Below are positions 5,132 through 61,359 of a DNA stretch of 64,000 nucleotides, piece after piece. The stretch lies in the NCBI GenBank assembly GCA_001247695.2, contig LGRX02024727.1:1-64000 (forward strand), read 5' to 3'. Numbering within the stretch: the stretch's first letter is position 1; every line of letters starts with the position of its first letter. A program made the position numbers and the translations under genes. This DNA comes from Cymbomonas tetramitiformis. Taxonomy: Eukaryota > Chlorophyta > Pyramimonadophyceae > Pyramimonadales > Pyramimonadaceae. The notes beneath the pieces were generated by a model, which was not told where the DNA came from, did no database searches, and worked only from the letters and a program-made list of their open reading frames with translations.

Positions 5132-5311
5132 GAATGATACATGTATGCATATTTCGGTGTTTTCATTGTACGCATACTGCACTTTTCTACCTTGTTGCCT
5201 TTATGTATCCCTATTTCGCGCATAAATATCACTAAACCCTGATTTTTATGAAATATATATATAAATCCAAAAATGACATATGATAATGTCATTTTCATCG
5301 AATAGTGTGTT

Positions 5312-5639: not shown

Positions 5640-5835
5640 CAGGGTGGATATCTTCCGATAACGTGATACGGTCCGCACTCGAATTTTCCCTCGGTCCACC
5701 TTCGGCCACCTCGGCCTGCCGGCCAATCTTTCTCGGCCGGCCTTCGGCCGGTGCGGAGCAATAAATCGACTAGATTTTACCGATTTTGATCTTCGGCCCG
5801 ATATCACTCAAAATTGTATCGGTCCTATATCGGCC

Positions 5836-11414: not shown

Positions 11415-11754
11415 TACCACAGGATGGAAAACGTCACCTAACTCATGTCCCAAATCTTTGTGCACAATACCAAACCCAAAAAGAGGCTGAGTGCACGCCT
11501 TATGCTTTCGCGCCAAACCCTACCCTTCCAAGCTAAACAAGCCGTTGCGTGAGCACCATAAGCCCCCCACACACACTCTCATATCGAGGCGATATTGGGG
11601 AAGCCCACACCTTTTATTTGCCGTTTGGTTTGCTGAAATCACTCAAAAATTCAACCCGGGGTGCTCATTCTCACTCCACGAGGGGATGCCCCACCCTGCA
11701 AACATATCCCATGAGCCATCAACATTGGGCAAGTGTGCATCAGTTTCATGACTA

Positions 11755-13260
11755 GTTCACGAATTAAAGCAGTTAGGGGAGAGCCTTACCTTCAATATGC
11801 CGTTGAGCTTGCTCGATTTGACTAAGTTTTGAACCTTGGGGACTCAATCTCGTTTGGGGTGGCCATGCTCCAATCTGCCAACATACCCTATCAGCCCTCA
11901 ACGTTTGCGACCTCTACACAACTTTCATGACTACTTGCAATAGAAAATATGATAGGTAGGACCTTTACCTTCAATATGCCGTTGAGCTTGCTCGATTTGA
12001 CAAACTTTAGAGCCTTGGGGACTCAATATCGTTTGGGGTGGCCATGCTCCAATCTGCGAACATACCCTATCAGCCCTCAACGTTGGCGACCTCTACACAA
12101 CTTTCATGACTACTTGCAATAGAAAATATGCTAGGTGGGACCCTTACCTTCAATATGCCATTGAGCTTGCTCGATTCCGTTAACTATGGAGGTTGGAGTG
12201 CTCGTTCTCGCTCATTGGGGTTAATGCCGCATCTGCGAACATACCCTATCAGCCCTCAACGTTTGCGACCTCTACACAACTTTCATGACTACTTGCAATA
12301 GAAAATATGCTAGGTGGGACCCTTACCTTCAATATGCCGTTGAGATTGCTCGATTCCGTTAACTATGGAGGTTGGGGTGCTCGTTCTCGCTCGTTGGGGT
12401 TAATGCCGCATCTGCGAACATACCCTATCAGCCCTCAACGTTGGCGACCTCTACACAACTTTCATGACTACTTGCAATAGAAAATATGCTAGGTGGGACC
12501 CTTACCTTCAATATGCCGTTGAGATTGCTCGATTCCGTTAACTATGGAGGTTGAAGTGCTCGTTCTCGCTCTTTGGGGTTAATGCCGCATCTGCGGACAT
12601 ACCCTATCAGCCCTCTACGTTTGGACCCTCTACACAACTTTCATGACTACTTGCAATAGAAAATATGCTAGGTGGGACCCTTACCTTCAATATGCCGTTG
12701 AGATTGCTCGATTCCGTTAACTATGGAGGTTGGAGTGCTCGTTCTCGCTCGTTGGGGTTAATGCCGCATCTGCGGACATACCCTATCAGCCCTCAACGTT
12801 GGCGACCTCTACACAACTTTCATGACTACTTGCAATAGAAAATATGCTAGGTGGGACCCTTACCTTCAATATGCCGTTGAGATTGCTCGATTCCGTTAAC
12901 TATAGAGCGTTTAATCAATCATCTCCGCCACGCTTAGCTTGCGCTATTCTGCGAAAGTACCCTATCAGCCATGCGTTTTAAAGGGCCCTAGAGGCCTCCC
13001 ATTCGCAAGCAAGCAAGAAGAAATAAAATTTAGAGTTCACACCTGCAATATGCCGTCGAGATTGAGCGATTCCGTTAACTATAGAGCGTTTAATCCATCA
13101 TCTCCGCCACGCTTAGCTTGCGCTAATCTGCGAAAGTACCCTATCAGCCATGCGTTTTAAAGGGCCCTAGAGGCCTCCCATTCGCAAGCGAGCAAGAAGA
13201 AATAATAGTTAGAGGTCATACCTTGAATATTCCGTCGAGTTTGCTCCATTACGTTAACTA
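11755..13260. repeat. ~179-bp satellite, about 8 copies
   Basis: The word TAGAAAATATG recurs at 11941, 12120, 12299, 12478, 12657 and 12836, a strict 179-bp period. Units carry CCTTCAATATGCCGTTGAG, GATTCCGTTAACTAT and ACATACCCTATCAGCCCTC. Two diverged units follow at 12890-13260. It directly follows the 192-bp array, separated by about 340 bp of unique sequence. Confidence 0.9.
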
Positions 13261-32379: not shown

Positions 32380-32901
32380 TGTTGTAACAAACGCCGGCTT
32401 CTCATGGTACCGCGCCGGGTTTGTTCTGCTGGTGACACGCGTGACAGTGGTGACAGCATGACAGGCTTTGCTAAGATGACCGTCTGAGAGATGCAGACCT
32501 GCCAGAGAAGATATGGTCATTATCGGATGACCAGGGAATGATAAGATGAAGATGGCAGTGACTCCTTTGCCACTGACGTGTTAGTCAGAATGTGGTAAAC
32601 GGTAACATTGTTAGAGCTGGCATGGAATAATGACTTTCCATTGGCCAGATGAAGATTTGAGGGCTAGAACCCGTTACAGTTTTGGGAAATGTGACAGAGC
32701 ATTGAGATATAAGTAAGCTCTGACCGTAGGTCAGGCTAGTGGACTCATTATTGTTTTGCTTCGCAAGTACTAGGTGGCTGTTCGCGTGCCAGTGCTAGAG
32801 TGCTAAGACAGTTCTGCTCACAGCTTTTGTACACAATAATTCGTATTTTGTGGTTATTATATCAATTTTGATGGATATGTTTTACTGATTTTTTCATACT
32901 T

Positions 32902-33142
32902 TGCGAGGAAGACAGATACGCTGTCCGGCTAAGCTCGCTAGGAGACAAACTGATAATCGCCTAAACAGTGTCTGGCCGGAGCTTTATGCTCTCGGAAACC
33001 CAGACAGTAACAATGACTGTACTACTGTACTGTACTACTGTACAGTACAGTGCTAAGATGTCACGGACACGAAACGGAAGCAGGGTCAGGCTAGGGGCTA
33101 GTCAGAGCCCATAATAACTAAGCCTAAACCCGAAGTCCAGCA
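32902..33142 (-). repeat. LTR of the gag-only element (3' LTR by gag orientation)
   Basis: TGCGAGGAAG...CCAGCA in plus orientation, 241 bp. It contains an internal tract of GTACTACTGTACT / ACAGTACAGT microrepeats. Confidence 0.93.
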
Positions 33143-33327
33143 CACCACCCGTGGGTGTGACTACCTAGCAAAGCAGGTACAGAATATACAGCCACGAGAC
33201 ATAAACAAACACCTAACATTCACTTCGGTGGAAACCGATCACTTCTAGCTGGGTGCCGGGGTCTTGACCCGGTCATCCCACCACTGGGCTAAAGCTAATC
33301 AAGCTGCCAGGATGAATTGCAAGAAAC

Positions 33328-35502: not shown

Positions 35503-35940
35503 GATAGAGTGACAGGGGAGAGGGTTGAGCTGAACAGGGGGATGGTGAGAGAACGCTTACAGCGGCCAGACGCCCGTAGAAGTCTCAGTTGAATGGATCG
35601 CGATTCACAGGTCGTAAGCGGAAGACGCAAGAGCGGCCAAAACAAGTCACGTGTGGAACGACCTCGCCGGAGCCAGCGGCGCACGAAACAAATCAACTCT
35701 CGCTGCGACGATGCTGCCGTAAAATAAAAACAATCCGTCACCAACTGATCTCCTGCGCAGCGAAGGCGAGCACAACGCGTGCCGCCATCACTGCCAAGCT
35801 AAAAGGCCATACCGTAAGAGCAATTCACCACCGCCCAAGTGGGCGCTCAACCCCTCCTACGTCCTACTTAGCCGAACATGGCAACAGCTAGGCGCTGTGC
35901 CATCATCAGAATCACCGGAAAGCCGGTGCGGCCTATAACC

Positions 35941-36181
35941 TGCGAGGAAGACAGATACGCTGTCCGGCTAAGCTCGCTAGGAGACAAACTGATAATCGCC
36001 TAAACAGTGTCTGGCCGGAGCTTTATGCTCTCGGAAACCCAGACAGTAACAATGACTGTACTACTGTACTGTACTACTGTACAGTACAGTGCTAAGATGT
36101 CACGGACACGAAACGGAAGCAGGGTCAGGCTAGGGGCTAGTCAGAGCCCATAATAACTAAGCCTAAACCCGAAGTCCAGCA
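35941..36181 (-). repeat. LTR of the gag-only element (5' LTR by gag orientation)
   Basis: Second 241-bp LTR, identical by eye to 32902-33142. Immediately right of it TACTT repeats the left flank, marking the target duplication. A tRNA-primer site next to it is not obvious (GGTTATAGG on the minus strand). Confidence 0.93.
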
Positions 36182-36191
36182 TACTTTTTCA

Positions 36192-46874: not shown

Positions 46875-47093
46875 TGTCGCAAACGCGTGTATATGATGGT
46901 ACGAACATTCTCGGAATCGAGCAAGCTTAACACTCGCGGCTGGTCATAAGTTCGTCATTAACATTCACTGGTGCCGGTAACTGTTCAAGCAATTCTCAAC
47001 ACAGCACAAGATCGTAGAGCTACAAATTTTTTAAAATTCTGATATTCTGAGATCGAACGCTAAGCTCTTACATGCAAGCCCAGATTTCCAACA
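46875..47093 (-). repeat. 219-bp LTR-like repeat A, copy 1
   Basis: Direct repeat of 47626-47844 with about three differences. On the minus strand it starts TGTTGGAAATCTGGGC and ends GCGACA, so it has LTR-like TG...CA ends. The flanks of the A-B-A block (CACAT left, TCCCC right) do not form a TSD. Confidence 0.8.
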
Positions 47094-47617
47094 TGAAAAA
47101 GTATAAAAACAGCAGTAAAATATATCCGTCAAAATTGATATTATAACCACAAAATACGAATTATTGTGTACAAAAGCTGTGAGCAGAACTGTCTTAGCAC
47201 TCTAGCACTGGCACGCGAACAGCCACCTAGTACTTGCGAAGCAAAACAATAATGAGTCCACTAGCCTGACCTCCGGTCAGAGCTTACTTATATCTCAATG
47301 CTCTGTCACATTTCCCAAAACTGTAACGGGTTCTAGCCCTTAAATCTTCATCTGGCCAATGGAAAGTCATTATTCCATGCCAGCTCTAACAATGTTACCG
47401 TTTACCACATTCTGATTGACACGTCAGCGGCAAAGGAGTCACTGCCATCTTCATCTTATCATTCCCTGGTCATTCGATAGTGACCATATCTTCTCTGGCA
47501 AGTCTGCATCTCTCAGATGGTCATCTTCGCAAAGCCTGTCATGCTGTCACCACTGTCATGCGTGTCACCAGCTGAACAAACCCGGCGCGGTACCATGAGA
47601 AGCCGGCGTTTGTTACA
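47094..47617 (-). repeat. 524-bp LTR of family B, inverted copy
   Basis: Reverse-complement counterpart of the split LTR at 32383-36191 and of the same length. It lies exactly between the two 219-bp A repeats, joined to copy 2 of A by 8 bp (47618-47625). No 5-bp TSD flanks it (CAACA / GTTAC). Confidence 0.8.
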
Positions 47618-47625
47618 GTTACAGC

Positions 47626-47844
47626 TGTCGCAAACGCGTGTATATGATGGTACGAACATTCTCGGAATCGAGCAAGCTTAACACTCGCGGCTGGTCATAA
47701 GTTCGTCATTAACATTCACTGGTGCCGGTAACTGTTCAAGCAATTCTCAACACAGCACAAGATCGTAGAGCTACAAATTTTTTAAAATTCTGATATTCTG
47801 AGATCGAACGCTGAACTCTTACATGCAAGCCCAGATTTTCAACA
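47626..47844 (-). repeat. 219-bp LTR-like repeat A, copy 2; probable 3' LTR of the large retroelement
   Basis: It begins on the minus strand directly after a purine tract downstream of ORF2 and has TG...CA ends. Position and ends fit the 3' LTR of the element encoding ORF1 and ORF2. The matching 5' LTR is absent from the window. Confidence 0.6.
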
Positions 47845-47854
47845 TCCCCCATCT
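47845..47854 (-). other. Polypurine tract (AGATGGGGGA)
   Basis: On the minus strand a purine run immediately precedes TGTTG of repeat A, 28 bp after the ORF2 stop. This is the expected plus-strand priming site of an LTR element. Confidence 0.6.
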
Positions 47855-47881: not shown

Positions 47882-50800
47882 TCAAATATGGGCTTGTTCA
47901 GCATACTGGGTCGTATCACCATCTGCCATGAACTTACCCAAACTGAAAGTGAACATGCCAATGCCTTCACCTTCTCCACCCTGTAACATCCTGGCTCTGA
48001 CCAGCGGATTCTTGAACACCAAGACCCACATACACCTGCGGCCAATAGGTCCATGTTCCAGATGCCCAATCACATGCAAGCGTCCCGTCTGACTCAATCG
48101 TCTGAAGTACGCAGCCCTGCTCTCGGTCATGTCTGTCAAGTAGTAAGATGGAACGTGGACACATGCCACCACACGACTGGCCATCACTGCCAATGGAAAC
48201 GCGATATCCAGCGCTGCAAACCACGGCGAAGTCACCACTGCGTCACAGACACCATACTTCTCCTTCCATATGCGGTAGTTACCTGGCTGAAGTGCGTCAT
48301 GCGCCTCAGACCAACCCAACTGAGAGTTCCAGTCATTATTCATAAATCTCAACTGCGGCCATTGCTCCACCATTACCTCACTGATGACCCCAGTACCTGC
48401 CCATGGGTCCCACACGCCATCGACGGACTTCCAGTCCACCTCTGTCGCCAAACGCCTCACCTCGGAGGGCACTGTGATGACCAGTTCAAGCCCCCACTGC
48501 AGTGCGCTAGCTTCTCTCACCTGAGCCTTAGTCATGTGTCTCAATTCTCCTCGTCTTTCAACTTCTTCTTCAGCCAACGCAGGCACAAGAGGTGCATCCC
48601 TCAGCTGCCTTGCCATGGCCTTCTGTTCCCGATATTTCTTGCTCAGCACCGTGCGATGCCCCTCATTCCAGTGCCCTGGCATGAAGATCTGCACGGCCTC
48701 AGAGAGCTTGTCCTGTCTTCCCCAATCAATCTGATCTGGCATGCCCAAGAACATGTCCTTCTCTTTCAACAACATCTCCCTTGATGAGATAGCATGCCAT
48801 GGCTGAAATTTATCTCCCTTCACCACACGACGGGGACCCACGTCTGCTGGCAGCAGGCGCATCTCCGCAGACAGCTTCTCATTCAATTGCTGCTCCTTCA
48901 TGCCCAGTCTGTCCTCTAGGACGCCAGAGCTCTCGTCTTTCTGGGTCTGCACCTCAGCGTTGGCAGCTTGCATCCCCGTGCCTGAGCACCTGGGACATAG
49001 CCACTCGCCTTCTGGTACTCCATCCAGTGCTGGGGTTAGACACCACAAGTGGTACCCCCTGTTGCATGCGTCGCACAACAACATCTCTGCTTCCCCATCA
49101 GTCTTCCTGCACGCTTCACATGCTAGGTGCTTGCTGGGAACGGCTGCACTGCAGTCATACTGGTCCTTCACCTGTAGGTGACATGGCGCGATGCTCTGCA
49201 CGGTGCTCTTCTCTCTTAACTTGGTGGCGTCCTCAAGCACCACCACGCCATCTCGCTGTATCTTGACCAGCTTCAGAATGGCGGATTTGGTCGCGACTTC
49301 CATGCCGCTGCGAGGCTTCTGCCTGATGTAGACGAAATCGCCCACCTTAAACTGGTGTGGACTAGGCTCATAGCCCCCACCCCTTCTCCCTTCATAATGT
49401 AATGTATCACGATGCTGTGCGACCTCCAGGCTGCAACCAGCGTGTACCATCAGTCGCCTCACCACCTGTGCTCTCCGGAGGAGGTCCTTGACTCTGGCAT
49501 CCTTCTCATCTTCGACCCCAGCACCGAAATCCATGCTGGGTGCCTGCTTCAAATCGGGCGGCACTACTGCCTCTTGGGCAAACAACATGATGAACGGCGC
49601 CACCCCCGTGGACTCCTGGCGTGCTGCATTATAACTCAGCACTAGTGGCCAGAGCTGCTCATCCCACTCATAATCGAGACCCTTCTCCAAGGCAAGCTTC
49701 TTGAAGCAAAACTTCATAGTGCGTACCACTCGCTCGGTCAGCCCATTGCCTTCTGGTGAGTCTGGCGAGGTGACTCGTCGGTCGATCAGGCAGTCTCTGC
49801 ACAGCTGCTTGAACTCGCCCTCGAACTCCTTACCTCCATCCACCAAGCACTCTGCTGGCGCACCAAACACCGCCAGGACATGACTGCGAAATGCCGCCGC
49901 GATCTCGTCCGTAGCCTCATCCCATCGATGTCGTGCTGCTCGTCTCCTCACACGACGAACTTCCTCTTCTGGCAACCTCACGCTGCCATTGGACTTCAAC
50001 CATCTGAGGCACCATGCATCATCGTGTACATCTCGATGCTTGTCACGGTCTACCTGCTGCTCGGCCACGCTGGCCATCAAGTCCTCGAATCTGGTGGTGC
50101 ACGCCAACCTGGGGAGTCTCATCTCTGAATCTTTGGCAGGCGGACTCCAAGCAGGCACATCCACGCGCGCTGCTGGGGTTGCGCCCTCCTTCACGAAGTG
50201 GTTCTCATGCCTCTGACGATACTGCGCCATAGTGTAGAGCTGCCACTCCTTCTTCTTCTTCTTCTTCTTGGTTCCAGCCTTCTGTCGCTGAGCCCCAATT
50301 CCTTCTGCACCTGTCTGCCCTCGCGAGCACATTACCTGCAGCTTCTCCTCCCAGTCACGGTGAGACATAGTCTTCGCCACCTGCTGAGTATATGCATTCG
50401 AATTCTCAACCCATTCCGCCAGCAAAGCTTGCCTCTGCTGAAGGTCCGACCTCTCGTGGTCTGCCCAGTTGTTGTCTACAGCGATGGGCTGTCCTGGGGA
50501 ATTCTCTGCCTCTGGGGATTCCTCGCTATGAGGGAGCCCCTTCCTGCTCGCTTCTGCGACCGCCATCAGCAGCTCCATTGCCCTGCGATCCATGGCCAGG
50601 CCCAGAATGCTTGCCAATTCTACGTCGTTCAGGCCATCGGCCATGCGTAGCTCACTTGCGCTGTAGCCCATGGCTCGCGCCTTCTCGTCGAGGTTCACTT
50701 CTCGAGATTCTTCCTCGGCGTCTTCATCGTCCTGGTTGCGCACCACGGTGCCCATCCTCGCTCTTCTGAACGCTCTTGACCCTTGCGTCGCCATGATGGT

Positions 50801-53800
50801 GGGAAGTGCCCTCAATGGTTCTCCCACCACGTTCACCACGTAGTGAGGCGAGCGGTTTGTCCTTATCACTGGCCTGGGATGCCAGCCCTTGCATAGGATT
50901 GACGATACGATTCGTCCTTCTGGTCGCACCACCTTGCTCATAACGGAGCGAAACTGGTGGCTCTGGAACAAGTTGCTCCAATACGCTCGCAATCGGTGTG
51001 CGTAAGCGCCTGCTTGTGCTGCATCAAAGGACACTGGTCGGCCAATGACGCTGGCAATGTACGGGAACACCTCGTCCCTGATCTTGGTTCCGGGTCTGTG
51101 TGACAACGGGGAAACGTTCTCCAGGATATAGCCTGGAGGCCTCTGCTGCTGCAGCTGCTGAAGTGTGGACAGAAGCCTAACCACTTCATAAAATAATTTG
51201 CTGTGCCTGCCATCCAGGCCTGTGAGTGTTCCAGCAGGAGAGAGATCCTGGCATGGGAACCCACATACCATGACCCACTGGCGTCCTTGAAGAGCTCCCG
51301 CTCGTATGAAGTCGGCACTGGTGGTGTCGTGCAGATCTTGGGGTAGAGCCCCAAACTCTATTGCACGGGGCGAAATGAGGTCAGGATATCGTCTTAGCAA
51401 CGCCGTGCACCTGGCCCTGGCAACTGTTCGACTGCTCGGGGATATGTCCTGATACAGGTAGCGATCCACCTTCATCCCACTGCGGAGCAACATCTCTAGG
51501 CCAGCACAGAGGCCTCCACATGGCTCGTAGCACACCACACCTTCCTCCCGAGCTTGCGAGAAGAACTGCCTGCCCAGCACCCTGGTGTCCACCTTCTCAG
51601 GCTTTAAGATGCGCTCGCCTTCAAAGTACTCATTGCTGTACACAGCGGGGCTTCCCTCGCCGTGCGTGCCTCGCGTAGGCCTCACTAGGCTCAGCGCCTT
51701 CCAAGCTGCTCTGGCTAGTCTTCCAGAGTCGGTCACTAGCTCGGGTAAGTCAGTGTCAAACATGTCCCCATGATTGCACTCCAATTCCTCGCGGTAGTGC
51801 AAGTCGAATAAACGATGCACTGGTCCCGTGCCCAGCTGCTCCATGGCAGCCATCCTGCAGTAGTTGGCAACCTGCACCTCTGGCGTGGCCTCTTCCCCTG
51901 GGGAAGCATCCCCAGCCAACATAAAGCACAAGTGGTCACAGAAGTCCTTCGTGTGAACTTCCCCCACGCCTGCGTGTAACGCAGTCACCTTCTCCCTCTC
52001 ATGCCTCGCTCCAGTCTCATCTGTCGTGGACGGCAGTGGGTAGCGAGACGGCACGTCAGCGTTGCTGTTCTTGGCTCCTGGACGATACTGCACCGTGAAG
52101 TCGAACTCCTGCAAACTGATTGCCCAGCGTAGGTGTTGCCCTTGGAGATCGGCCTTCTCCATCAGGGTGGTGAGCGGTGAGTGGTCGGTCACCAACGTGA
52201 AGTGAACTCCATGCAAGTACTGCCTCAGTGTGCGCACTGCCCATACCACTGCGAGCATCTCCCCCTTGAAGCTGGCGTACTGTCTCTCCGTTTTACTCAG
52301 GGATCGGCTGATTGCCATACAGATGTACTCCTTCCCATCATCGTCCTTCTGGCCCAGCACTGCGCCAATGCCATAGGTGCTCCAATCGGTGTACAATATA
52401 AGGGGTCTGTCATAATCGATAGGCCTCAGGCACCTCCCAGAACAGAGAGCATCCTTCAGGTCTTGAAGTGCTTGATCTTGCTCCTTCCCCCAGGCTCCCT
52501 TGATGTCAGTGACCTCCTTCTTGAGCAGGTCATTGAGAGGGCGGGCCATCTCTGAGTAGTTCGGCCCCCCTGGCTCACCCACCAGGCCCTTGTAGTAGTT
52601 CATCATGCCCAAGATCGAGCGGAGCCCAGTCTTGTCCTGGGGGCTTGGAAGCTCCTGGATGGCCTTACATTTAGCTTCTTGCGCGCCAATGGAGTTGTGA
52701 CCAATGCGGTAGCCCAGAAAGTCCACCGTGGCTGCACCAAAGGTACTCTTGCCTGCATGCAAACGGATGTCAGCGTCCCCCAAGGTGCGCAGTACGTCCT
52801 CAACATCCTTCAGATGCTGCTCAGGCGTGGAATCCGTGTAGACCACTACGTCGTCGACGTATGCCACCGTATAATGCTGCAAGTGACGTAACTCGTAGTC
52901 CATGATTCTCACGAACGCAGAAGTAGCTCCAGCTGCACCAAAAGGCATCGAGGTGTACTGGTACAGCTGATTATTCCACCAAAACGCCGTCTTGCTCCTG
53001 TCCTCTTCCGTGGCCATGGGAATCTGGTGGAAGGCTTTGGTGGCATCCAGCGTGGTCTTGAACTTGGCCTTCGCCACCTTCTGATAGAGCTCCTCTGGTC
53101 GATGTGGCAGCGTATTGTCTTTGAGGGAGTGCCGGTTGACACCCCTGAGGTCCACGCAGAATCTCGTCTGGGTCCACAGGCCAGTCTCATGATCTTTCTT
53201 GCCAGCCACGACGACGTTACTCGCATGCCTGCAATGCTTGGCTGCAGGCTCTATGAAGCCATACTCCAAAAGTTCATTGCAATGAATATCGATGATTTCC
53301 TGCTCGCCCGGACTGTACTTCCTGGGTCTCTGGTAGGCGGCCTTGGATTCGTCTACAAAAGGAATGGAGAACGTGTTGTGCTCCGCTTTGCCCTTGTAGC
53401 CTGTCAGATCGTGAGGACTGTTGGCAAAGGTGGTCTTGCACCTGCGAAGAACATTCCGCATTTCCTCCCAGTGCTCCTCCTTGAAGTCAGGATGTCCTCC
53501 AAACGTGGCATTGAGCTCGGTGTCGAGCCACGCTGCCTCGTCCTTGGTCACTGTCGTGTCACCTAGAGGTTGAAGCTCGTCCAGCACGGTGTACGGCAAG
53601 ACCTCATCCTGCTCCGCGACGTTGGCCTCCCAGCCCGGCTCCCATTGCCTTGAGGATTGCTGAGCCTCCCAAGAAGTGCAGGGGGACGAACCCCAGGCAC
53701 TGCGCGTGGGTGACATGACATCATACGTAGGCACACTCTCGGTCAGCTTGCCAGCGACCCACAAGATTCCGCACAAAAGCAGAAAAAATCGCAAAATTCG

Positions 53801-54667
53801 GTTGAAATGCACTGCGGCTGCCGGCGAGTTCGAAGCGAAGAAGCACGCCATTACTCTCCACCCCCCGTGCGCCAAGCGAGTACTCCCACCAGCGGCGGTG
53901 GAGACCACGACTGCAAGGACAAGCGCCATGTAGGCGGCTTGCGCGATGCGATGAAGGCGGAGATTGCGTCGAAGCTGCGTCCAGCGCGCCGCGAAGCGAG
54001 GCTTGTCCAACCTGGCCGGCAAAGCGGGCAGGCACACGCGGCCCAACAAGAAGACTTGGGACCAACGCAGGGACGGAATAGTCCATCCACGGCCACGTCG
54101 ACTGTGACCTGCGTCCGGCGGGTCGTGCACGATACAGGAGGCGTGGCACGCCACGTCCTCAGCGTAAATGCTGGTACAAACCCAAAGCCAGGCGAGGACC
54201 ACGAGGAGGAGGGCGGCCGCACACTGTGACCAGCATGCCAAGGAAACGACCACCCCCCGAAGGGGCACCACCATCCAACCTTCTGCACGAACACGGTGCA
54301 CGCCAGCATAGATGCCCGTGGCGCGCACGGTAAGCAACCCAACGTACCAAACGCAGGCGAGAGCCCATAAGATCCAAATGTCGTAAGATGCACGACGGGG
54401 ATAACGTCGAGCAGACGACCACCATACTGGCAGCTGGCTCAAAAACGAGGCCACGCAGCGCCTCCACCAAACTTGAAAAGGGCACCATGACAAGTGCCAT
54501 GCCATCGCCTCCCACATCGCCCACACGGCGGCCATGGGAATGGGACCGCGTCCCAGCCACCACCAAACCACTGCACTGCCCGCAAACGAGATACACGCCC
54601 GCAGGACACCTGGCCTCAAGTGGACTGCCTGTGCAGGCAGCCCACGGCCACAGCGTTGGTTGTGCAT
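47882..54667 (-). CDS. ORF2 polyprotein: TM region-RT-RNaseH-C5 MTase-integrase-PHD-MTase2 (~2,261 aa)
   Basis: Residues are numbered from a GTG at 54676; the first ATG is residue 4 (54667-54665). Residues 25-312 hold about five hydrophobic Trp-rich segments. RT is ~430-665 with AYVDD (D608, D609). Ty3-type RNase H is ~755-880 (D764, E806, D831, D874). A cytosine-C5 methyltransferase is ~1045-1370: EPCGGLCAGLEML (motif I), CGFPCQDLS (IV, catalytic C1142), ENV (1186-1188, VI), HRLRAYWSN (1227-1235, VIII), then a motif X-like end; LFYEVVRLL and HRxRxxW spacing resemble DNMT3. A lysine run is at ~1470. The integrase keeps D1613 and E1648 but lacks the H2C2 finger and first Asp; its C-terminal SH3-like part is ~1774-1836. 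A C4HC3 PHD finger is 1853-1897. A second Rossmann domain is ~2070-2225 with DPWAGTG (2090-2096), NND (2113-2115) and DAVVTSPWF (2145-2153). There is no stop or frameshift. Confidence 0.9.
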   Translation of the reverse strand: MHNQRCGRGLPAQAVHLRPGVLRACISFAGSAVVWWWLGRGPIPMAAVWAMWEAMAWHLSWCPFQVWWRRCVASFLSQLPVWWSSARRYPRRASYDIWILWALACVWYVGLLTVRATGIYAGVHRVRAEGWMVVPLRGVVVSLACWSQCAAALLLVVLAWLWVCTSIYAEDVACHASCIVHDPPDAGHSRRGRGWTIPSLRWSQVFLLGRVCLPALPARLDKPRFAARWTQLRRNLRLHRIAQAAYMALVLAVVVSTAAGGSTRLAHGGWRVMACFFASNSPAAAVHFNRILRFFLLLCGILWVAGKLTESVPTYDVMSPTRSAWGSSPCTSWEAQQSSRQWEPGWEANVAEQDEVLPYTVLDELQPLGDTTVTKDEAAWLDTELNATFGGHPDFKEEHWEEMRNVLRRCKTTFANSPHDLTGYKGKAEHNTFSIPFVDESKAAYQRPRKYSPGEQEIIDIHCNELLEYGFIEPAAKHCRHASNVVVAGKKDHETGLWTQTRFCVDLRGVNRHSLKDNTLPHRPEELYQKVAKAKFKTTLDATKAFHQIPMATEEDRSKTAFWWNNQLYQYTSMPFGAAGATSAFVRIMDYELRHLQHYTVAYVDDVVVYTDSTPEQHLKDVEDVLRTLGDADIRLHAGKSTFGAATVDFLGYRIGHNSIGAQEAKCKAIQELPSPQDKTGLRSILGMMNYYKGLVGEPGGPNYSEMARPLNDLLKKEVTDIKGAWGKEQDQALQDLKDALCSGRCLRPIDYDRPLILYTDWSTYGIGAVLGQKDDDGKEYICMAISRSLSKTERQYASFKGEMLAVVWAVRTLRQYLHGVHFTLVTDHSPLTTLMEKADLQGQHLRWAISLQEFDFTVQYRPGAKNSNADVPSRYPLPSTTDETGARHEREKVTALHAGVGEVHTKDFCDHLCFMLAGDASPGEEATPEVQVANYCRMAAMEQLGTGPVHRLFDLHYREELECNHGDMFDTDLPELVTDSGRLARAAWKALSLVRPTRGTHGEGSPAVYSNEYFEGERILKPEKVDTRVLGRQFFSQAREEGVVCYEPCGGLCAGLEMLLRSGMKVDRYLYQDISPSSRTVARARCTALLRRYPDLISPRAIEFGALPQDLHDTTSADFIRAGALQGRQWVMVCGFPCQDLSPAGTLTGLDGRHSKLFYEVVRLLSTLQQLQQQRPPGYILENVSPLSHRPGTKIRDEVFPYIASVIGRPVSFDAAQAGAYAHRLRAYWSNLFQSHQFRSVMSKVVRPEGRIVSSILCKGWHPRPVIRTNRSPHYVVNVVGEPLRALPTIMATQGSRAFRRARMGTVVRNQDDEDAEEESREVNLDEKARAMGYSASELRMADGLNDVELASILGLAMDRRAMELLMAVAEASRKGLPHSEESPEAENSPGQPIAVDNNWADHERSDLQQRQALLAEWVENSNAYTQQVAKTMSHRDWEEKLQVMCSRGQTGAEGIGAQRQKAGTKKKKKKKEWQLYTMAQYRQRHENHFVKEGATPAARVDVPAWSPPAKDSEMRLPRLACTTRFEDLMASVAEQQVDRDKHRDVHDDAWCLRWLKSNGSVRLPEEEVRRVRRRAARHRWDEATDEIAAAFRSHVLAVFGAPAECLVDGGKEFEGEFKQLCRDCLIDRRVTSPDSPEGNGLTERVVRTMKFCFKKLALEKGLDYEWDEQLWPLVLSYNAARQESTGVAPFIMLFAQEAVVPPDLKQAPSMDFGAGVEDEKDARVKDLLRRAQVVRRLMVHAGCSLEVAQHRDTLHYEGRRGGGYEPSPHQFKVGDFVYIRQKPRSGMEVATKSAILKLVKIQRDGVVVLEDATKLREKSTVQSIAPCHLQVKDQYDCSAAVPSKHLACEACRKTDGEAEMLLCDACNRGYHLWCLTPALDGVPEGEWLCPRCSGTGMQAANAEVQTQKDESSGVLEDRLGMKEQQLNEKLSAEMRLLPADVGPRRVVKGDKFQPWHAISSREMLLKEKDMFLGMPDQIDWGRQDKLSEAVQIFMPGHWNEGHRTVLSKKYREQKAMARQLRDAPLVPALAEEEVERRGELRHMTKAQVREASALQWGLELVITVPSEVRRLATEVDWKSVDGVWDPWAGTGVISEVMVEQWPQLRFMNNDWNSQLGWSEAHDALQPGNYRIWKEKYGVCDAVVTSPWFAALDIAFPLAVMASRVVACVHVPSYYLTDMTESRAAYFRRLSQTGRLHVIGHLEHGPIGRRCMWVLVFKNPLVRARMLQGGEGEGIGMFTFSLGKFMADGDTTQYAEQAHI

Positions 54668-54669
54668 CA
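54665..54669 (-). promoter_or_regulatory. TGATG stop-start overlap between ORF1 and ORF2
   Basis: On the minus strand ORF1's TGA (54669-54667) shares its A with ORF2's first ATG (54667-54665). Such UGAUG/UAAUG junctions allow termination-reinitiation in some viruses and retroelements. A frameshift would be the alternative; no slippery heptamer is obvious. Confidence 0.6.
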
Positions 54670-57600
54670 GGGCCACCCGCCCGCTGTGCCCGGGGAGCCC
54701 TGATGAAAATGCGCGTGCTGTCTCTGCGCCTCACGTTGTTCGTCTGTATGGCGCTCGAACGCCTCCGTCACCTCGCTGCATATTGAAACAGCCGGAGAAG
54801 GAGGACGTCGTGAGTCATGATTGGCCGGCATCCTGGACGCCCTCGACGCATGGACGACATGGGTAGCAGTCCCATGGCGATCGACAGAAGGGGCAGATGA
54901 GCGCGCAGCGCCGCCCGCGCCCGGCTGACGCTCAGACGTTCGGCCAGAAGGCCGGCCCTGATGACGCGCAGGGGGGTCGCGAACCTCGTGCACATTCCTC
55001 CCCCAGGCCGTATCCACGTGTTCGGATCTCTCGGCCACGCGAGCCTGATGGGCGGGCGGCGGCGGCGGCGGCGGGAGACGCAGCGCCTCCAAGGCCCCCA
55101 GGGCTGGCAGCAACCACGGCGCGGCCACCTCCCTGGTCCCCCACTGCAAGCCTGTGAACTTCCGGTCATCTCGCATGAAGTACTCGTTCGTGAACTCAGC
55201 GTGCCAAGTAGGACATCGCTGGTCCTCCATGAAGATGTAGTACACTGGTGTGGCATTTGGGTGCGCCATGCAGCGCAGCACGTGCGCTGCCCCAAGCTCC
55301 ACGTAGGCGCAAAGCGAGTACGCAATGTTCCTCGCATGACCCCCTGGCAACCTGTGCCCTGAGCCACGGTGCGACAGATCAGCGTAGGCTGAAATCATAG
55401 CCTCCAGCAGGTTGGAAGACGTCGTCTGTCCCCCAAGAGGGAGGTGCCAGCCCCGGTCTCCGCACGCGATGGTCTTGTCATGCTTCTTGGCGACCTTGCT
55501 GGTGATACCCGGATGTTTCCGCAGCCTGAGACCTCGCTCCTGGTTGCACACGCCAAGCTCGTACACGACTCGCTGGCCCCTGCAACGGTCAACGAACGTC
55601 ACGCCAAACCGCACCATAAAGACGGTAAGGTTGCGGCGGTCCTTCAAGGCTCTCACCTCCTCCACGGACAGAAATTTGCACACTGAACTGTCGGATGTGG
55701 TGGCCATTCGTGCGGCATCCCAATCTGACCCCGCTGGAGATGGAGGCGCCCTCGCAGGGGACCGAGGCAGACGACTCGCCCGTGGTGGACTCGGAGGCGT
55801 AGGAGGCGGGCCCCCCGGGGAAAGTGATCGGGAATCACGTGGGACACGGATCGAGTCCGCCCACGAGCCAGCGTTGCTCACAGCGGGCGATGCAGGGGGC
55901 GACCTCCCGCGAGAAGGGCGGTCAGCAGGACCTGGCGGCCAAGCCGCGGTGGCGCAAACGAGTCGAGGTGACATCAAGTCCTCAGGCCCAATGTCGCAGG
56001 ATGATGGCGACGGTGTACGGCAGTGTGCGAGGTGCGACAAGTGCGGTGGCGAGCGGCTGCCGGACCTGGCCCGAGATGGCCCCGCGACAGCCTGAGATGG
56101 TCGTGCGATGTGCGACAAGCGCGGTGGCGAGCGGCTGCTGGACCTGGCCCGAGATGGCCCTGCGACAGCCTGGGATGGTCCTGCGCCTGAGGCAGGAGCA
56201 GGTGGCTGCGCAGGGGCTCGCTTCTTGAGCCTCGTGTTGACCATGTTGTTGGGCGGTGGTGGCCTACGCCTTGCATCTGCCTCGAGCGCATCGTAGCCCT
56301 GCTGCCTGGTGTTGACCGACTTGAGCATTTTCCTCATCTCCCCCAGACGCACGTACTCCTGGGCAGCGGCATTCTCGGAGAACACCCTGCCAGGCCCCCC
56401 AAGACCATCCCCCACTGGGTAGTACTTGGTGCTCGAACCCAGTGAGACGAGCTCCAGAGGTGGCCCCTCGCTGCCATGTCGATTATATTGTCGGAGGATG
56501 CCAACCGCGAGGGATTCCATGTCCACCGGGCAAAGGTACCTGAGCAGCTGGTATGTCCAGACACCAGTGCTCTCGTACCAGTGAGGGAGTTGGAGCTCGT
56601 CCAGCAACTCCTCACTGTTGTACACGAGCGCATGATCCAGCGTGCAGCGCATCAGCTCGAGGTACTGCGTGGTTGCGCTCGGTTGGACACAGAGGACACG
56701 CTCCTTCAGGTCCCACATGAGGGTGGCAGTGACCTCACCACTGGGGTATATGAACAACGCCTGGAGCGTGTCCTGCAGTCGCTGGATCGGGTTGAGGCTG
56801 TCGCGCGATCTGCCTCGCTCCCTGGGCTTGACGACGTCCTGCTTGCTGGCAGAGGACGGCACGTGTGTCATGTAGCTCCCATTGAGCACCCAGCGGTCCT
56901 TCTCCTCATCGTGACCCAGCTTCTGGTCCACATACAGCCAGTTAGGGGGCATCAGCTGGTCCACCATCACCCACTTCTGCTCGAGACAACGGACGAACTC
57001 CACGCAGACATGTTCTTGGGAAGGTCTGGCCGGCATGTCCTTGGGAAGGTCTTGAAGGATGCGGCAAAGACGCGCGATATGGTGCCGGTCCAGGTACAGT
57101 CTCTGATCCGCCCAGTTGTGGTCGAGAGGGGCATCCAGAGACGGACGACCCCCAACAACCTGGTCCTCAATGACCCACCTCGCGCGTCCACCCTCCCAGG
57201 GGTTCGGTTCTGCGTAGAGTTGTGCGAGCATGCGCTCCGACGCTGCCTGTACGGCGGGCGCCAGTGACGCCAGGTCACTCCTTCGGCCACCTTCAAGGGA
57301 ACATGTGTGACTGCGACACCTCTCCTCGACCTCCGCGCGCGTGGCGAGTCGGGGTCGTGGGGGCTCAGCAGGAGGCCTCGACGAAGACGCTGGTGACCCC
57401 AATGGTGACACGTAGACGTCATCAATGTGCTCAGGCTGAATCCCAGAGGCAGCAAACCTCTCCTCCCTTGTGCTCAGAGGTGGGTGCTCTAGCCATTCGC
57501 ACTCCATCCCCTGCCCAAAGATCTCCGACTGCAAACACACCACTGGGTCCACCCGCCTGGGCAGGTGGGGACGCCTGGGTGGTGTCATGTCAACCAACGG

Positions 57601-57900
57601 AAGCACCACCTGAGCATCCATGCCCAAAATCGTTGGCGCATGCGACACGGCCACGCAACTTCCAAGCTTGATGTCGATCATCAGGGAGTTCTTCAGTGGC
57701 CCGGTGCCTATCAGCAGATCCCACGAGTTCTCGGGCTCGAAGGTCACGAAGGCGTATAGCCGGTGAAGCGTCATGTGCGGTGTGCCCGCAGCCAGTAGGA
57801 GGAGGACAGTGTCACGAACCATATTGTATGATATCCACGGCAGGATTGCCGTGGATACTTGCAGACTCAGGAAACCACTCCCCACTAGGGCGGTAAAAAG
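54667..57900 (-). CDS. ORF1: protease-like remnant plus novel domains and an RS/SP-rich linker (~1,072 aa)
   Basis: Open from 57900 to TGA at 54669-54667. The first in-frame ATG is residue 22 counted from a GTG at 57885, but the true start is probably lost with the missing 5' part. Residues ~1-90 suggest a decayed retropepsin: ALVGSG where ALVDSG would be expected (upstream of and at residue 1), and WDLLIGTGPLKNSLMIDIKL resembling the flap-to-ILG segment. Residues ~100-545 are unrecognised but look folded. Residues 545-725 are Pro/Ser/Arg-rich, with a tandem 26-residue duplication (PSQAVAGPSRARS, ~569-618). Residues 735-920 form a second unrecognised globular part with several Cys and His. 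The end is Pro/His-rich. The stop overlaps the ORF2 start as TGATG. The protein may supply protease plus an accessory function. Confidence 0.6.
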   Translation of the reverse strand, partial: LFTALVGSGFLSLQVSTAILPWISYNMVRDTVLLLLAAGTPHMTLHRLYAFVTFEPENSWDLLIGTGPLKNSLMIDIKLGSCVAVSHAPTILGMDAQVVLPLVDMTPPRRPHLPRRVDPVVCLQSEIFGQGMECEWLEHPPLSTREERFAASGIQPEHIDDVYVSPLGSPASSSRPPAEPPRPRLATRAEVEERCRSHTCSLEGGRRSDLASLAPAVQAASERMLAQLYAEPNPWEGGRARWVIEDQVVGGRPSLDAPLDHNWADQRLYLDRHHIARLCRILQDLPKDMPARPSQEHVCVEFVRCLEQKWVMVDQLMPPNWLYVDQKLGHDEEKDRWVLNGSYMTHVPSSASKQDVVKPRERGRSRDSLNPIQRLQDTLQALFIYPSGEVTATLMWDLKERVLCVQPSATTQYLELMRCTLDHALVYNSEELLDELQLPHWYESTGVWTYQLLRYLCPVDMESLAVGILRQYNRHGSEGPPLELVSLGSSTKYYPVGDGLGGPGRVFSENAAAQEYVRLGEMRKMLKSVNTRQQGYDALEADARRRPPPPNNMVNTRLKKRAPAQPPAPASGAGPSQAVAGPSRARSSSRSPPRLSHIARPSQAVAGPSRARSGSRSPPHLSHLAHCRTPSPSSCDIGPEDLMSPRLVCATAAWPPGPADRPSRGRSPPASPAVSNAGSWADSIRVPRDSRSLSPGGPPPTPPSPPRASRLPRSPARAPPSPAGSDWDAARMATTSDSSVCKFLSVEEVRALKDRRNLTVFMVRFGVTFVDRCRGQRVVYELGVCNQERGLRLRKHPGITSKVAKKHDKTIACGDRGWHLPLGGQTTSSNLLEAMISAYADLSHRGSGHRLPGGHARNIAYSLCAYVELGAAHVLRCMAHPNATPVYYIFMEDQRCPTWHAEFTNEYFMRDDRKFTGLQWGTREVAAPWLLPALGALEALRLPPPPPPPAHQARVAERSEHVDTAWGRNVHEVRDPPARHQGRPSGRTSERQPGAGGAARSSAPSVDRHGTATHVVHASRASRMPANHDSRRPPSPAVSICSEVTEAFERHTDEQREAQRQHAHFHQGSPGTAGGWP

Positions 57901-58684
57901 TCACTTCTAAAATGTTGCACATTTGAAGCATACCATCTTGATTGATAACTTTAAAAACACCCATGATACGCGACATCCGGACCAAATCAGCAAGGTTGAA
58001 ACATCGGAATTAGCATTAGCCATCTAACGAGAAATTCGTGTTTTACGCGGCGTTCGGTTTTTCATTTTCCTTTAAAGAGGCTGTGTCATCACGTAGTTTT
58101 ACGAAGCCGATACTATCGAGTACCGTGTCTACATGATTGATTTTAATACCCGAAAAGGGTATTAAAAGTTAATCTAAATTCGGTTTCTTGATGGATCGAT
58201 TTTTTTTCTTCATATACTTTGTTTTTCTATGCGCTATGCTCCCTGGGGAATTCTGAATTATGAACTTTGTTTCTTTCTGAATCATGAACTTGTGAACTAG
58301 GGTTTTCTTCTTCTCTTCACCCTAGGGCGGTGCTTTCAACTACCTATTTATCTGTATTGTCCGTCGTTTGTTGCAGTTACTTAAGGCGTAATGCATGTTA
58401 ATTAGACGCCATTGCATGGTCATAGAAGATCCTGGGATATTCCGTGTACAACTGGACGACAAGCTCAGCACCGTATTTTGGTGCCTTTCTTCTCGTACGG
58501 TGATCTTTCTGCGCAATTTGTCCCTTGGTGGCGAATTCGTACGAAAATTAACGACTACTGACACCTCTTGCTTGCTGCCGTTTCCGTGCGCAAGGCTGGA
58601 GGCGTAATCGACAGCAGCAGCGTTTTGTTGCGAGAGAAATCTTCTTTTCCAAGTTCTCTTAGCACATATACAAAATGTAACTTC
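57901..58684. other. Non-coding gap with a perfect 11-bp hairpin
   Basis: TTTTAATACCC and its complement flank GAAAA at about 58141-58167. No LTR copy, primer-binding site or gene was recognised. This is the junction beyond the truncated retroelement. Confidence 0.45.
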
Positions 58685-60136
58685 ATGAAACCTAAAACTG
58701 TTTGTGTAATTTACCTGATGCGGTCCGTTAACTTAACACAATATATTTATCAATATGCAAGTATAATACGGCAGTATGCTCGGACCGTAGAAAACCAAAC
58801 ACCGCACGCAGATAACTTAATACGGCTCACAACGGACACGCTTTGGTTTGCTGATAACTTAATACGGACTGTAGTTAACTTTACAACACACTTAGTTAAC
58901 TTAAAGTGTTACGTGGCCCTCTGTATATGGCCTGCGGTATACCTATTATGGTGTGCAGATACTCTAACATGGCTCACTAATAACTCAATACGGTCAGTAG
59001 ATAACTTAGCACGGCTTGCAACAAACTTAATAAGGACAACCAACAAATGTAAGCGGCTAAAGGATAAACAATCACAGGACTCGGGAAACCCGAAGCAGCA
59101 TGCGGCTAATTCAACACGGAGGTTAGATAACTTTAATATGCCGACAGATGACCTGAAGCGGTCCGGTTCTAACTTAAAGCGGTCTCCGAGAGCTGAAGGG
59201 CGAATAATAAGAAACCCTAAGCCTAGAGGGCCATACCTAAAGGGAAAGGGGGGAATAAAGACACATGAGGGCAAAATTACACAAAAACACTTCACACAGT
59301 GGCCAGAAAAGGTGGCACAAACAAGTATGGGGAAAATAAATAAGAACAGCCAGCCTTGGAACTTTAGCGAATTGTGTTATGTGCTATTCGTAAAGAATCG
59401 AAATTTCATACAAAAGGGCATAGTACTGAAATATTTGGGGGAAATAACCCGAGGGTATGTACGAAACTGCATACAAAAGCATGAGACCCAATTAAGAGAT
59501 ATTACAACCGAGAGAAGACAACACATGGTTGTAACGCGTAACAAGGGAAACAATGATATGCTGAAAACAAGTATAAACTGGCGGGTCAGGATGCATGCTG
59601 ACCATGGAAATGACTTACGAGAGGCCCGGGAGCACGAACACATGATTATAGGGGGAAAGGCGGCTATAAGCACCAAAATAATGGGAAACCCTAACCTCTT
59701 GAGGCGATACCTAGTGAATATGGGACGGGTAGAGGTGCGTAGGAGTAAAATTGGGCGAAAATATTTCACACAATGCTTATATATGACAATAAGGGATAGC
59801 AGGGGAAAAATAAAGGCAAACGGACAACCTTGGACCGGAAGCGAATTGCATGAGGTACAATTCGTAAAAAATCGAAATTTTACAAAAAAGAGCCTAGAAC
59901 CAAAAAAATTCAGGGAAGGGACCCGAGGACATATACGAAGCCATGTGCGAAAGAGGAATGCCCAAATAAACGATATGGTAGCTGAGGGGAGGCAACAAGT
60001 GGGTGTAACGCGTAACACGGAGAGCACAATAATGCTCAGAAGCCGCGGAAATGGGGGAAGCAAGGTGGGCACTGGTCTTGCAAAAGACACACGGGATGCA
60101 GCCAAGCAGGGTACAGATAAATGCACACGAAGATGA
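58685..60136 (+). CDS. ORF with internally duplicated basic domain, upstream of the C48 protease ORF
   Basis: The frame is open from before 58568; the first ATG is 58685 and the stop TGA is 60134-60136, giving about 483 aa. The first half contains repeated DNLIR-type words from a GATAACTTAATACGG repeat and may be non-coding sequence that happens to be open. The second half carries two related ~115-residue units (about 59250-59580 and 59690-60050). They share KNRNF, a GxITRGYVRN / GTRGHIRSH segment, a Q-rich turn and VVTRN / GVTRN. The protein is very basic. No known family is recognised. Base composition is clearly more A-rich than the retroelement or ARP7 exons. Its end overlaps the next ORF as ATGA, which suggests they travel together. 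Confidence 0.4.
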   Translation: MKPKTVCVIYLMRSVNLTQYIYQYASIIRQYARTVENQTPHADNLIRLTTDTLWFADNLIRTVVNFTTHLVNLKCYVALCIWPAVYLLWCADTLTWLTNNSIRSVDNLARLATNLIRTTNKCKRLKDKQSQDSGNPKQHAANSTRRLDNFNMPTDDLKRSGSNLKRSPRAEGRIIRNPKPRGPYLKGKGGIKTHEGKITQKHFTQWPEKVAQTSMGKINKNSQPWNFSELCYVLFVKNRNFIQKGIVLKYLGEITRGYVRNCIQKHETQLRDITTERRQHMVVTRNKGNNDMLKTSINWRVRMHADHGNDLREAREHEHMIIGGKAAISTKIMGNPNLLRRYLVNMGRVEVRRSKIGRKYFTQCLYMTIRDSRGKIKANGQPWTGSELHEVQFVKNRNFTKKSLEPKKFREGTRGHIRSHVRKRNAQINDMVAEGRQQVGVTRNTESTIMLRSRGNGGSKVGTGLAKDTRDAAKQGTDKCTRR

Positions 60137-61359
60137 AAACTGACAAAGACATAAGCGGCAGCATGATTATGACATATTACATAATGCGGCATTTTTTGAG
60201 ATGTGAAATAAACTACATCAAAACACAAGCGGAACTGCAAGCAACCTCTCATTGGACTTTTATTATGCTCTTTCACCTAATGACGGGACTTAGCAAAATG
60301 AAGCTGTACCCTAAACAATATTTCCCGGGGCCTAGAGTCATAATACACCTAGCCCACAAGAGACCTAAGGCCTGCAAAAGGATAAGCAAGAGCGCCTTGA
60401 AATACATGATTCAAAACCCCAAAATGGCATGGCTTTGGGAGAGGACACGGACCCAAAATACAAAGAAATCTAAAATGAAATCACCTCTAAGAATAACGAA
60501 ACATAAAATTCACCGAAAAAAGAATAACGTCACCAAACAACATAATACGCCTGAACCTGATCGGATGTTAAGCGGTGGAGCAGGCACCGTAGATAATGCA
60601 GTAGATGAAAATATAATGGCTACGGAATCACTTCTCTCGGAAAAGGGATGGTTAAATGCAACTCATGTTGGTGATGCCATGAAAATACGGGACCCGAGTA
60701 CCATTGCCCCCATGGACCTCACGGACATGATGCTGAAGATGACAGTGGAGGACCAAAAACTCACACAACTCATTAACAGCAGACTCAAAAAACATGGCCA
60801 CACCCAAATAGGCGTGTGTGACAATATACATTGGCGTCTCATAATGATCCGCTTATCATCATCCGGAAAAATAGATGCTTACATATATGACCCTTTTGGA
60901 GATAATGCCGAAAGAGAAACCATCAATATGATTGTGGTAGCACTCACAACCTGGCTGAAAAATCTCAAAGCCATCACAGAATTTAAGGAATTCACAGTTA
61001 CTATTAGCAAGGATACATTTCAAACAGATACATACAACTGTGGCACATGGGTAGCAAAAACCGCCTTCAGATGGGCCCAATGGAACAGAGGTTCACATCA
61101 GACCACATTCCCTACAAATTTAGGAATCGTAGGTAGGGCCATGTTTGCCTTGTATCTACCTTGTGTCTGGATGGCCAAAAACCACGACCAGACATGGCCA
61201 TGTTTAGTCAGTTTTTCAGCGGCGCAACACAACCCAAGTAAGGCCATGTTTGGTCGTGGTTTTTGGCCTTACTTACCCCTTACTTACCTTGTACCTACCC
61301 AATGTCTAACGCACCATACGTACGCACGTGAATGCATGAATCACTTAGACATTGGGTAG
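60121..61359 (+). CDS. C48 (Ulp1/SENP-like) cysteine protease ORF (412 aa)
   Basis: ATG at 60121; a second ATG at 60133 overlaps the previous ORF's TGA as ATGA. The N-terminal ~150 residues are basic and unrecognised. The protease fold spans ~170-345: substrate-side GWLNATHVGDA (176-186), catalytic His in DNIHWRL (H237), Asp in YIYDPFGD (D257), and the oxyanion Gln and nucleophile Cys in FQTDTYNCGTW (Q301, C307). All four are present, so activity is plausible. In eukaryotes this family cleaves SUMO or related modifiers; stand-alone or transposon-borne copies are common in plant and algal mobile elements. After ~residue 345 the reading frame runs into a dispersed repeat (TGGCCATGTTTGGTCGTGG and the 61283 hairpin), so the natural C-terminus may be earlier. 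Confidence 0.75.
   Translation: MHTKMKTDKDISGSMIMTYYIMRHFLRCEINYIKTQAELQATSHWTFIMLFHLMTGLSKMKLYPKQYFPGPRVIIHLAHKRPKACKRISKSALKYMIQNPKMAWLWERTRTQNTKKSKMKSPLRITKHKIHRKKNNVTKQHNTPEPDRMLSGGAGTVDNAVDENIMATESLLSEKGWLNATHVGDAMKIRDPSTIAPMDLTDMMLKMTVEDQKLTQLINSRLKKHGHTQIGVCDNIHWRLIMIRLSSSGKIDAYIYDPFGDNAERETINMIVVALTTWLKNLKAITEFKEFTVTISKDTFQTDTYNCGTWVAKTAFRWAQWNRGSHQTTFPTNLGIVGRAMFALYLPCVWMAKNHDQTWPCLVSFSAAQHNPSKAMFGRGFWPYLPLTYLVPTQCLTHHTYARECMNHLDIG

Follow-up and report, generated by a model that had tools for sequence, protein, structure and literature searches.

The 64,000-nt stretch of Cymbomonas tetramitiformis DNA analysed here (contig LGRX02024727.1, hereafter the window) contains a long reading frame that appeared to join reverse transcriptase (RT), RNase H, a DNMT3-like C5 cytosine methyltransferase, integrase, a PHD finger and a second methyltransferase fold, and this raises the question of whether such a combination belongs to a family of retroelements or is an accident of one copy. 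The frame is uninterrupted over 2264 codons, as the original prediction held, but it lies on the minus strand; the plus-strand translation of 47882-54676 is riddled with stops. No evidence supported the GTG at its beginning as a genuine start. The translation holds AYVDD, EPCGGLCAGLEML, FPCQDLS, ENV, HRLRAYW, DPWAGTG and TSPWF. In a Pfam search of the frame, RT_RNaseH (3.9e-33), RVT_1 (1.3e-21), PHD (5.8e-11) and C5 DNA_methylase (3.1e-9, residues 1135-1198) all scored above their curated cut-offs. The predicted RT, RNase H and C4HC3 PHD finger were thereby recovered, and the C5 match falls within residues 1045-1370, the stretch on which the prediction hinged. The integrase gave a weak match (rve_3, 0.18), and the same search returned no H2C2 and no match for the C-terminal domain. 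The host had been taken for a charophyte; the nearest proteins are CYMTET_* entries of C. tetramitiformis, a chlorophyte of the Pyramimonadales. The features of the element are collected in Table 1. Ahead of the RT, window 53762-54382 (minus strand) encodes hydrophobic, membrane-like segments, and at least one such segment precedes the RT in 9 of the 12 proteins scanned, with none in P0025, P0048 and P0049.

Table 1. Positions in the window of the element's reading frames, predicted protein domains and repeats.
Feature	Position	Strand	Basis or remark
Upstream ORF of the same element, 1072 aa	54667..57885	-	Homology to other copies from ~57,800 downwards
Pol-like frame, 2264 codons	47882..54676	-	Translation and Pfam
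Reverse transcriptase, AYVDD	52580..53332	-	Pfam and family alignment profiles
RNase H	52025..52423	-	Pfam and family profiles
Predicted DNMT3-type C5 cytosine methyltransferase, residues ~1045-1376	50549..51544	-	Pfam and PDB profile ranking
Integrase remnant, second Asp and Glu	49556..49936	-	Weak Pfam match and sister-copy comparison
PHD finger, C4HC3	48974..49138	-	Pfam and zinc-ligand conservation
C-terminal domain DPWAGTG...TSPWF, probable methyltransferase fold	47981..48469	-	Family comparison
Polypurine tract GATGGGGGA, directly before B1	47845..47853	-	Same place in 4 other copies printed
Repeat B1, TGTTG start, GCGACA end	47626..47845	-	Repeat comparison
Repeat A2, TGTAACAAACG...TTTTTCA	47098..47617	-	Repeat comparison
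Repeat B2, its end being the 3' end of the element	46875..47094	-	Repeat comparison
Lone further A repeat, 96.5% identical	32383..32902	+	Followed near its end by a 3.3-kb LTR element

The window copy belongs to an abundant Cymbomonas element of ~16.6 kb that is related to Ty3/Gypsy, and it has lost its 5' end and part of its integrase. At ~49,900 it lacks, in frame, 399-402 bp that are present in all five sister copies covering this position (seven copies were read), and comparison with P0003 and P0005 shows that the lost segment carries the zinc finger of the integrase and its first catalytic Asp. Sister copies such as P0003-P0005 have both the HHCC zinc finger and the DDE core (PF17921, PF00665), which the window copy does not. 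The integrase is incomplete because of this in-frame loss: the second Asp and the Glu of the predicted D/E motif are kept, but a complete integrase in the window copy is ruled out by the weak rve_3 score, the lack of H2C2 and the ~400-bp deletion. The remnant is catalytically incomplete.

The adjoining upstream ORF shows a 91% match to copy C25055 and a weaker one to P0014. Among the 40 scored matches of window 57000-58800, the window and one identical duplicate contig align throughout, and the other 38, a count that leaves out two small extra pieces, start at query 1001-1028, corresponding to window 57,800-57,773. Since homology ends at ~57,800, the window copy must be 5'-truncated. Other copies continue further upstream into a Gag-like part that is absent from the window copy, in which no match to Gag was found. 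A DTGA protease motif precedes the RT in one of nine long proteins scanned (P0014); by homology to P0014, the window copy lacks the corresponding region and with it the DTGA half of the protease. The duplicate contig (G000:C366:12004-13804, identical to window 57000-58800) indicates that the assembly holds a duplicate or a second haplotype.

The intact architecture is found in the relatives of the window copy. Protein searches, of which the best 120 of 167 and 120 of 132 matches were listed, gave a family set of 218 proteins (216 matches and the two window ORFs) that we scored with our own profiles. All six modules occur in the order RT-RNase H-C5-integrase-PHD-C-terminal domain in 80 of the 218, counting the window protein with its partial integrase, and a further 47 have every module except the C-terminal domain, which an early end of the protein may explain in some of them. 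Among the 218, many entries from Cymbomonas are copies that closely resemble one another. The predicted placement, in which RNase H is followed by the C5 domain and then by integrase, PHD finger and a further C-terminal domain, therefore recurs family-wide. In two proteins (P0079 and P0214) the C5 domain stands before the RT, which could reflect a move or a second capture. P0079 is also listed with zinc-finger Pfam domains such as PF00642. The named hosts are Cymbomonas, Haematococcus, Pleodorina, Monoraphidium and Scenedesmus, and most other entries carry metagenome source labels; P0135, labelled as a bacterial metagenome bin, is probably mis-binned. The Pol order RT-RNase H-integrase with a Gypsy-like RT is that of Ty3/Gypsy elements, and Ty3 Gag-Pol was the best PDB match of sister copy P0003 (6.7e-56). 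The integrase is of the DDE type, and no tyrosine recombinase (PF00589) appeared in the Pfam columns among the matches listed.

Nor is the methyltransferase private to the window copy. A C5 profile scan of the Cymbomonas assembly (851.7 Mb; the published genome size is 850 Mb-1.2 Gb, PMC5741210) yielded 123 scored candidates, and 97 of 124 genomic C5 rows align to one and the same section of the profile, lying within positions 22-157 (hand count). This is a lower bound because the window's own match was not among the 123 candidates. A private insertion is ruled out by these genomic matches together with the 80 six-module proteins. First-look candidates in Cymbomonas for three parts of the element numbered 3064, 1686 and 2465 (40 scored each), and the element looks very abundant there. 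Burns et al. (2015) reported Cymbomonas scaffolds at >10,000x coverage with homology to cytosine methyltransferase, RNase H and chromodomain (PMC5741210); these high-copy scaffolds probably represent the same or related repeats, and the available text of that paper describes no architecture or family for them.

Pooled over five to eight Cymbomonas copies, pN/pS was 0.13 for RT, 0.04 for RNase H, 0.28 for C5, 0.18 for the integrase remnant and 0.06 for the C-terminal domain; the value of 0.86 for the PHD finger comes from few changes (5 synonymous, 15 non-synonymous). A chance fusion or pseudogene read-through, with modules inserted into a dying copy, would suit the truncated and integrase-deleted state of the window copy, but it conflicts with the finding of this module order in 80 of 218 proteins, which come from several algae and a large number of metagenomes, and with pN/pS values that stay below 1 for all domains measured. 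We give it practically no credence: as an account of the architecture it is already refuted, and it holds merely for the decay of the window copy.

We then asked how the C5 domain and Pol are related by descent. A FastTree phylogeny of RT, RNase H and integrase comprised 127 tips of the 153 proteins that were long enough, near-duplicates having been dropped. All 101 tips bearing C5 or PHD formed one clade with a support of 0.79, and the same clade without P0079 (100 tips) had a support of 1.0; support is low on many inner branches. The clade also contains three C5-less tips (P0072, P0074 and P0080, with 186-213 residues between RNase H and integrase) and three without a PHD match (P0214, P0067 and P0188), so both modules can be lost. 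P0094, a C5-less Klebsormidium Gypsy, was sister to 99 of the clade tips (support 0.997). C5 and Pol distances were correlated over 97 tips (r 0.61; highest of 999 permutations 0.22). Because the carriers form one Pol clade and the two sets of distances agree, the C5 domain appears to have been largely inherited with Pol, and our reading is a single C5 capture followed by such inheritance. P0075, which is not among the C5-less tips, has 194 residues between RNase H and integrase.

What kind of enzyme the C5 domain resembles was read from its profile. Built from 12 sequences, it matched 49 PDB sequences, with DNMT3A first (7.7e-12), then DRM (3.8e-7) and then HhaI (7e-5); neither DNMT1 nor DNMT2 was among the 49. 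The motif I residues were invariant in 12/12 members, 11 of which had a Pfam C5 match. Under the usual C5 motif numbering, the Cys of motif IV, the Glu and the Asn of motif VI and the two Arg residues of motif VIII were each retained by 96 of 97 sequences. We classify the domain as DNMT3-type by motifs I, IV, VI and VIII and by profile ranking. The residue before the motif IV Cys is Glu in 66/97 (e.g. P0032) and Pro in 21/97, the window copy keeping the Pro. This exchange of Pro for Glu would be compatible with a domain that modifies RNA (the element RNA or a tRNA primer) or binds nucleic acid non-catalytically during reverse transcription, and methylation of RNA has been considered possible for DNMTs carried by LINEs (PMC5890265). 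Such a role is nevertheless improbable in view of the near-complete conservation of the catalytic Cys, Glu, Asn and Arg, the closeness of the profile to the DNA enzymes DNMT3 and DRM, and the lack of DNMT2 among the PDB sequences matched. Stand-alone C5 frames of ~385-400 aa, covering profile positions 2-322, were also seen (L008 and L007, together with C8, C6, C2041, C154 and C16883); L008 is nearest to DNMT3C/3B among solved structures, and these frames may belong to the host or to endogenous viruses. A scan of IMG/VR with the C5 domain returned six short distant matches covering 36-72 query residues.

The PHD finger keeps all eight zinc ligands of the C4HC3 pattern in 99/99 sequences, and in the PDB the finger of P0003 matches CHD4, WSTF, ATXR5, Lid (KDM5) and BAZ2A best. 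Readers of H3K4me3 have a cage Trp two residues before the His of this pattern. Here that residue is Gly in 89/99, and our guess is therefore that the finger binds unmodified H3K4. Chromoviruses are Ty3/Gypsy elements in which a chromodomain, a chromatin-reading module, lies C-terminal to the integrase. The Cymbomonas element likewise has a putative chromatin-reading module after its integrase and differs from them in having a PHD finger instead of the chromodomain, whose place the finger would occupy, as well as a C5 domain and permuted repeats. Chromoviral pol genes are also present in Cymbomonas (PMC10675990).

The prediction of a second methyltransferase held in part: the DPWAGTG...TSPWF motifs are present, the domain gave no Pfam match in the window copy, and the fold is only probable. 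In 4 of 14 members we found a weak match to D12 (best 0.0094) and in 4 of 14 a match to the phage DNA methyltransferase PHROG 799 (best 4.3e-6), in neither case including the window copy. The motif I-like DPWAGTG and the motif IV-like SPWF vary widely over 73 sequences, motif IV being SPWF in 23 of them; D12/Dam-type N6-adenine methyltransferases have [DNS]PP[YFW] as their catalytic motif. A search for solved relatives gave three weak, unrelated PDB matches (best E 0.027). Free-standing relatives amounted to 30 matches, all of them Cymbomonas, EukProt or metagenome entries, and the names given, where there are any, are hypothetical protein, uncharacterized protein or methyltransferase. The low pN/pS of the domain corresponds to 35 non-synonymous versus 156 synonymous pair differences among eight Cymbomonas copies, such differences not being independent. 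The domain probably has a diverged methyltransferase fold that evolves fast. Whether it catalyses anything is doubtful, and its role may perhaps be structural or substrate-binding. Judged by its substitutions, it is strongly constrained within Cymbomonas and so presumably matters to the element.

The ends of the element are unusual for a Ty3/Gypsy retrotransposon. In the window, the Pol stop codon is followed by repeats in the order B-A-B, and a full element is ~16.6 kb long, arranged as A-ORFs-B-A-B with TG...CA ends (copy C25055 runs from 16730 to ~33338, 16.6 kb). The 5' end is A1, starting with TGTAACAAACG, and the 3' end is that of B2, GTTTGCGACA (one change in C12716). We fetched 30 loci of the 41 matches to a B-A-B query, one of the matches being the window itself; such a query selects for B-A-B. 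Pol lies directly before B1 in 30/30, and B-A-B is therefore not an unrelated small element inserted behind pol, an option that we reject. The A2-B2 junction is blunt in 30/30, CA being followed directly by TG, and the spacer between B1 and A2 is GC in 27/30 and 8-10 bases long in the other three, the window included. B1 and B2 differ by a median of 0.9% (27/30 copies measured) and in the window copy at 3/219 sites; the small median difference points to recent insertions.

Element ends were paired by contig and orientation. A perfect 4-bp target duplication was found in 5/7 copies with both ends read (TACA, AGCA, AACA, AGTT and TGTC), where the chance of one is 1 in 256 per copy; the other two had no perfect duplication (C396, CAAC/AAAC; C12716, none). 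In C16944 and C13181 the ends are ~22 and 26.5 kb apart, and nested insertions are therefore presumed. If A-B-A-B were an assembly artefact or the outcome of tandem LTR recombination rather than the normal integrated form, the B-A-B-A-B found at locus L038 would be readily explained. It is, however, very hard to reconcile with such an origin that the A2-B2 junction is blunt in all 30 copies recovered with the B-A-B query, that their flanks differ, and that the perfect 4-bp duplications lie exactly at these ends in 5/7, and we regard it as highly improbable.

The identical LTRs at both ends that characterise Ty3/Gypsy elements are absent, the 5' end being formed by A and the 3' end by B-A-B, and the split direct repeats A-coding-B-A-B that characterise DIRS elements are present. 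The element is best described as carrying DIRS-like permuted repeats and as being, in all likelihood, inserted by a DDE integrase. In LTR elements the polypurine tract usually precedes the 3' LTR, and the ends are TG...CA. By these rules the LTR would be B-GC-A, and the integrated form would be circularly permuted, opened at B.GC.A. The permuted arrangement suggests a circle or tandem intermediate from which the integrase would trim the GC.

Gypsy elements with Dnmt3 and DIRS-like repeats are already known in kind. KnitGypsy-Dnmt3 of Klebsormidium nitens (de Mendoza et al. 2018, PMC5890265) joins a Gypsy Pol ORF to a Dnmt3-type domain and has A-coding-B-A-B repeats and intronless copies under purifying selection; Gypsy Pol, Dnmt3-type domain and DIRS-like repeats are all shared with the Cymbomonas element. 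Compared by description, KnitGypsy-Dnmt3 has a streptophyte host and a PHD finger goes unmentioned in the main text of that paper, whereas the Cymbomonas element has a chlorophyte host and a PHD finger. Among the matches listed (best 120 of 132 and 120 of 167, most without a species name), none that bears C5 was named Klebsormidium. SymbioDIRS-Dnmt3 and SymbioLINE-Dnmt of dinoflagellates are further retroelement-borne cytosine methyltransferases (PMC5890265). The former has the same A-coding-B-A-B repeats as the Cymbomonas element, but SymbioDIRS encodes a tyrosine recombinase and SymbioLINE an endonuclease in contrast to the DDE integrase and 4-bp target duplications seen here. According to a 2019 opinion piece, green algae and charophytes are among the groups that have Gypsy and DIRS elements encoding a methylase, and the available part of a 2025 survey names retrotransposon DNMT3s for streptophytes and dinoflagellates. 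No published account of a PHD-bearing C5 Gypsy of chlorophytes was found in the literature covered, the scope of which excluded preprints and most subscription journals. As far as searched, the chlorophyte clade, the domain order, the PHD finger with the C-terminal module and the anatomy of the target duplications are new. Earlier reports came from one charophyte and some dinoflagellates; to these is now added a broad clade of chlorophyte elements whose architecture is fixed.

The explanation that we favour, and consider moderately probable as a whole, is a green-algal Gypsy clade marked by C5 and PHD that combines cDNA methylation, PHD-guided insertion and a circular intermediate. Pol would be packed with the element RNA, and the C5 domain would methylate double-stranded cDNA during its synthesis or before integration, so that new copies would arrive premethylated and be hidden from foreign-DNA defences and/or quiet enough for the host to survive. 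Behind the integrase, the PHD finger would bind the H3 tail and steer the insertion complex. The DNA would pass through a circular or tandem form before the DDE integrase inserts it, and the integrated A-ORFs-PPT-B-GC-A-B would be a circular permutation of an LTR element with the LTR B-GC-A, opened inside one LTR. We infer both self-methylation and chromatin reading by the polyprotein from its domains. Self-methylation of retrotranscribed cDNA has already been proposed for the relatives; in yeast, de novo CG methylation was observed with SymbioDIRS-Dnmt3 domains and none with the Klebsormidium Gypsy DNMT, the latter a result that its authors call inconclusive (PMC5890265).

The methyltransferase might instead restrain the element, self-methylation lowering its expression and copy number so that carrier host lineages survive, as de Mendoza et al. 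suggest as a possibility (PMC5890265). The apparent abundance of the element in Cymbomonas, with first-look candidates in the thousands, speaks against this, and we think it unlikely. Returning to methylation of the cDNA before a PHD-guided insertion, a bolder version is an ancient green-algal lineage with one DNMT3 capture across chlorophytes, in which circular self-methylated DNA is opened inside the LTR by the element's own DDE integrase and the PHD finger picks the chromatin; we put this forward tentatively, as a possibility that falls well short of probable. Why a transposon would methylate itself becomes testable in the carrier algae, e.g. Haematococcus and the volvocalean Pleodorina. 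The permuted LTRs and the 4-bp duplications also point to a DDE integrase able to act on circular DNA, unlike the textbook retroviral route.

The window holds several other repeats and reading frames. A young 3.3-kb LTR element with 244-bp LTRs (1 mismatch) occupies window 32902-36184, having inserted close to the end of the lone A repeat (start at 32383); it has a 5-bp duplication, TACTT, identified by eye, and a 724-aa minus-strand ORF without a Pfam match. A 412-aa ORF at window 60121-61359 (plus strand), also without a Pfam match, contains DTYNCGTWV, which we take to resemble the active site of an Ulp1/C48-like protease. Tandem arrays with units of 42, 192 and 179 bp lie at window 5270-5723, 9841-11484 and 11694-13219, respectively.
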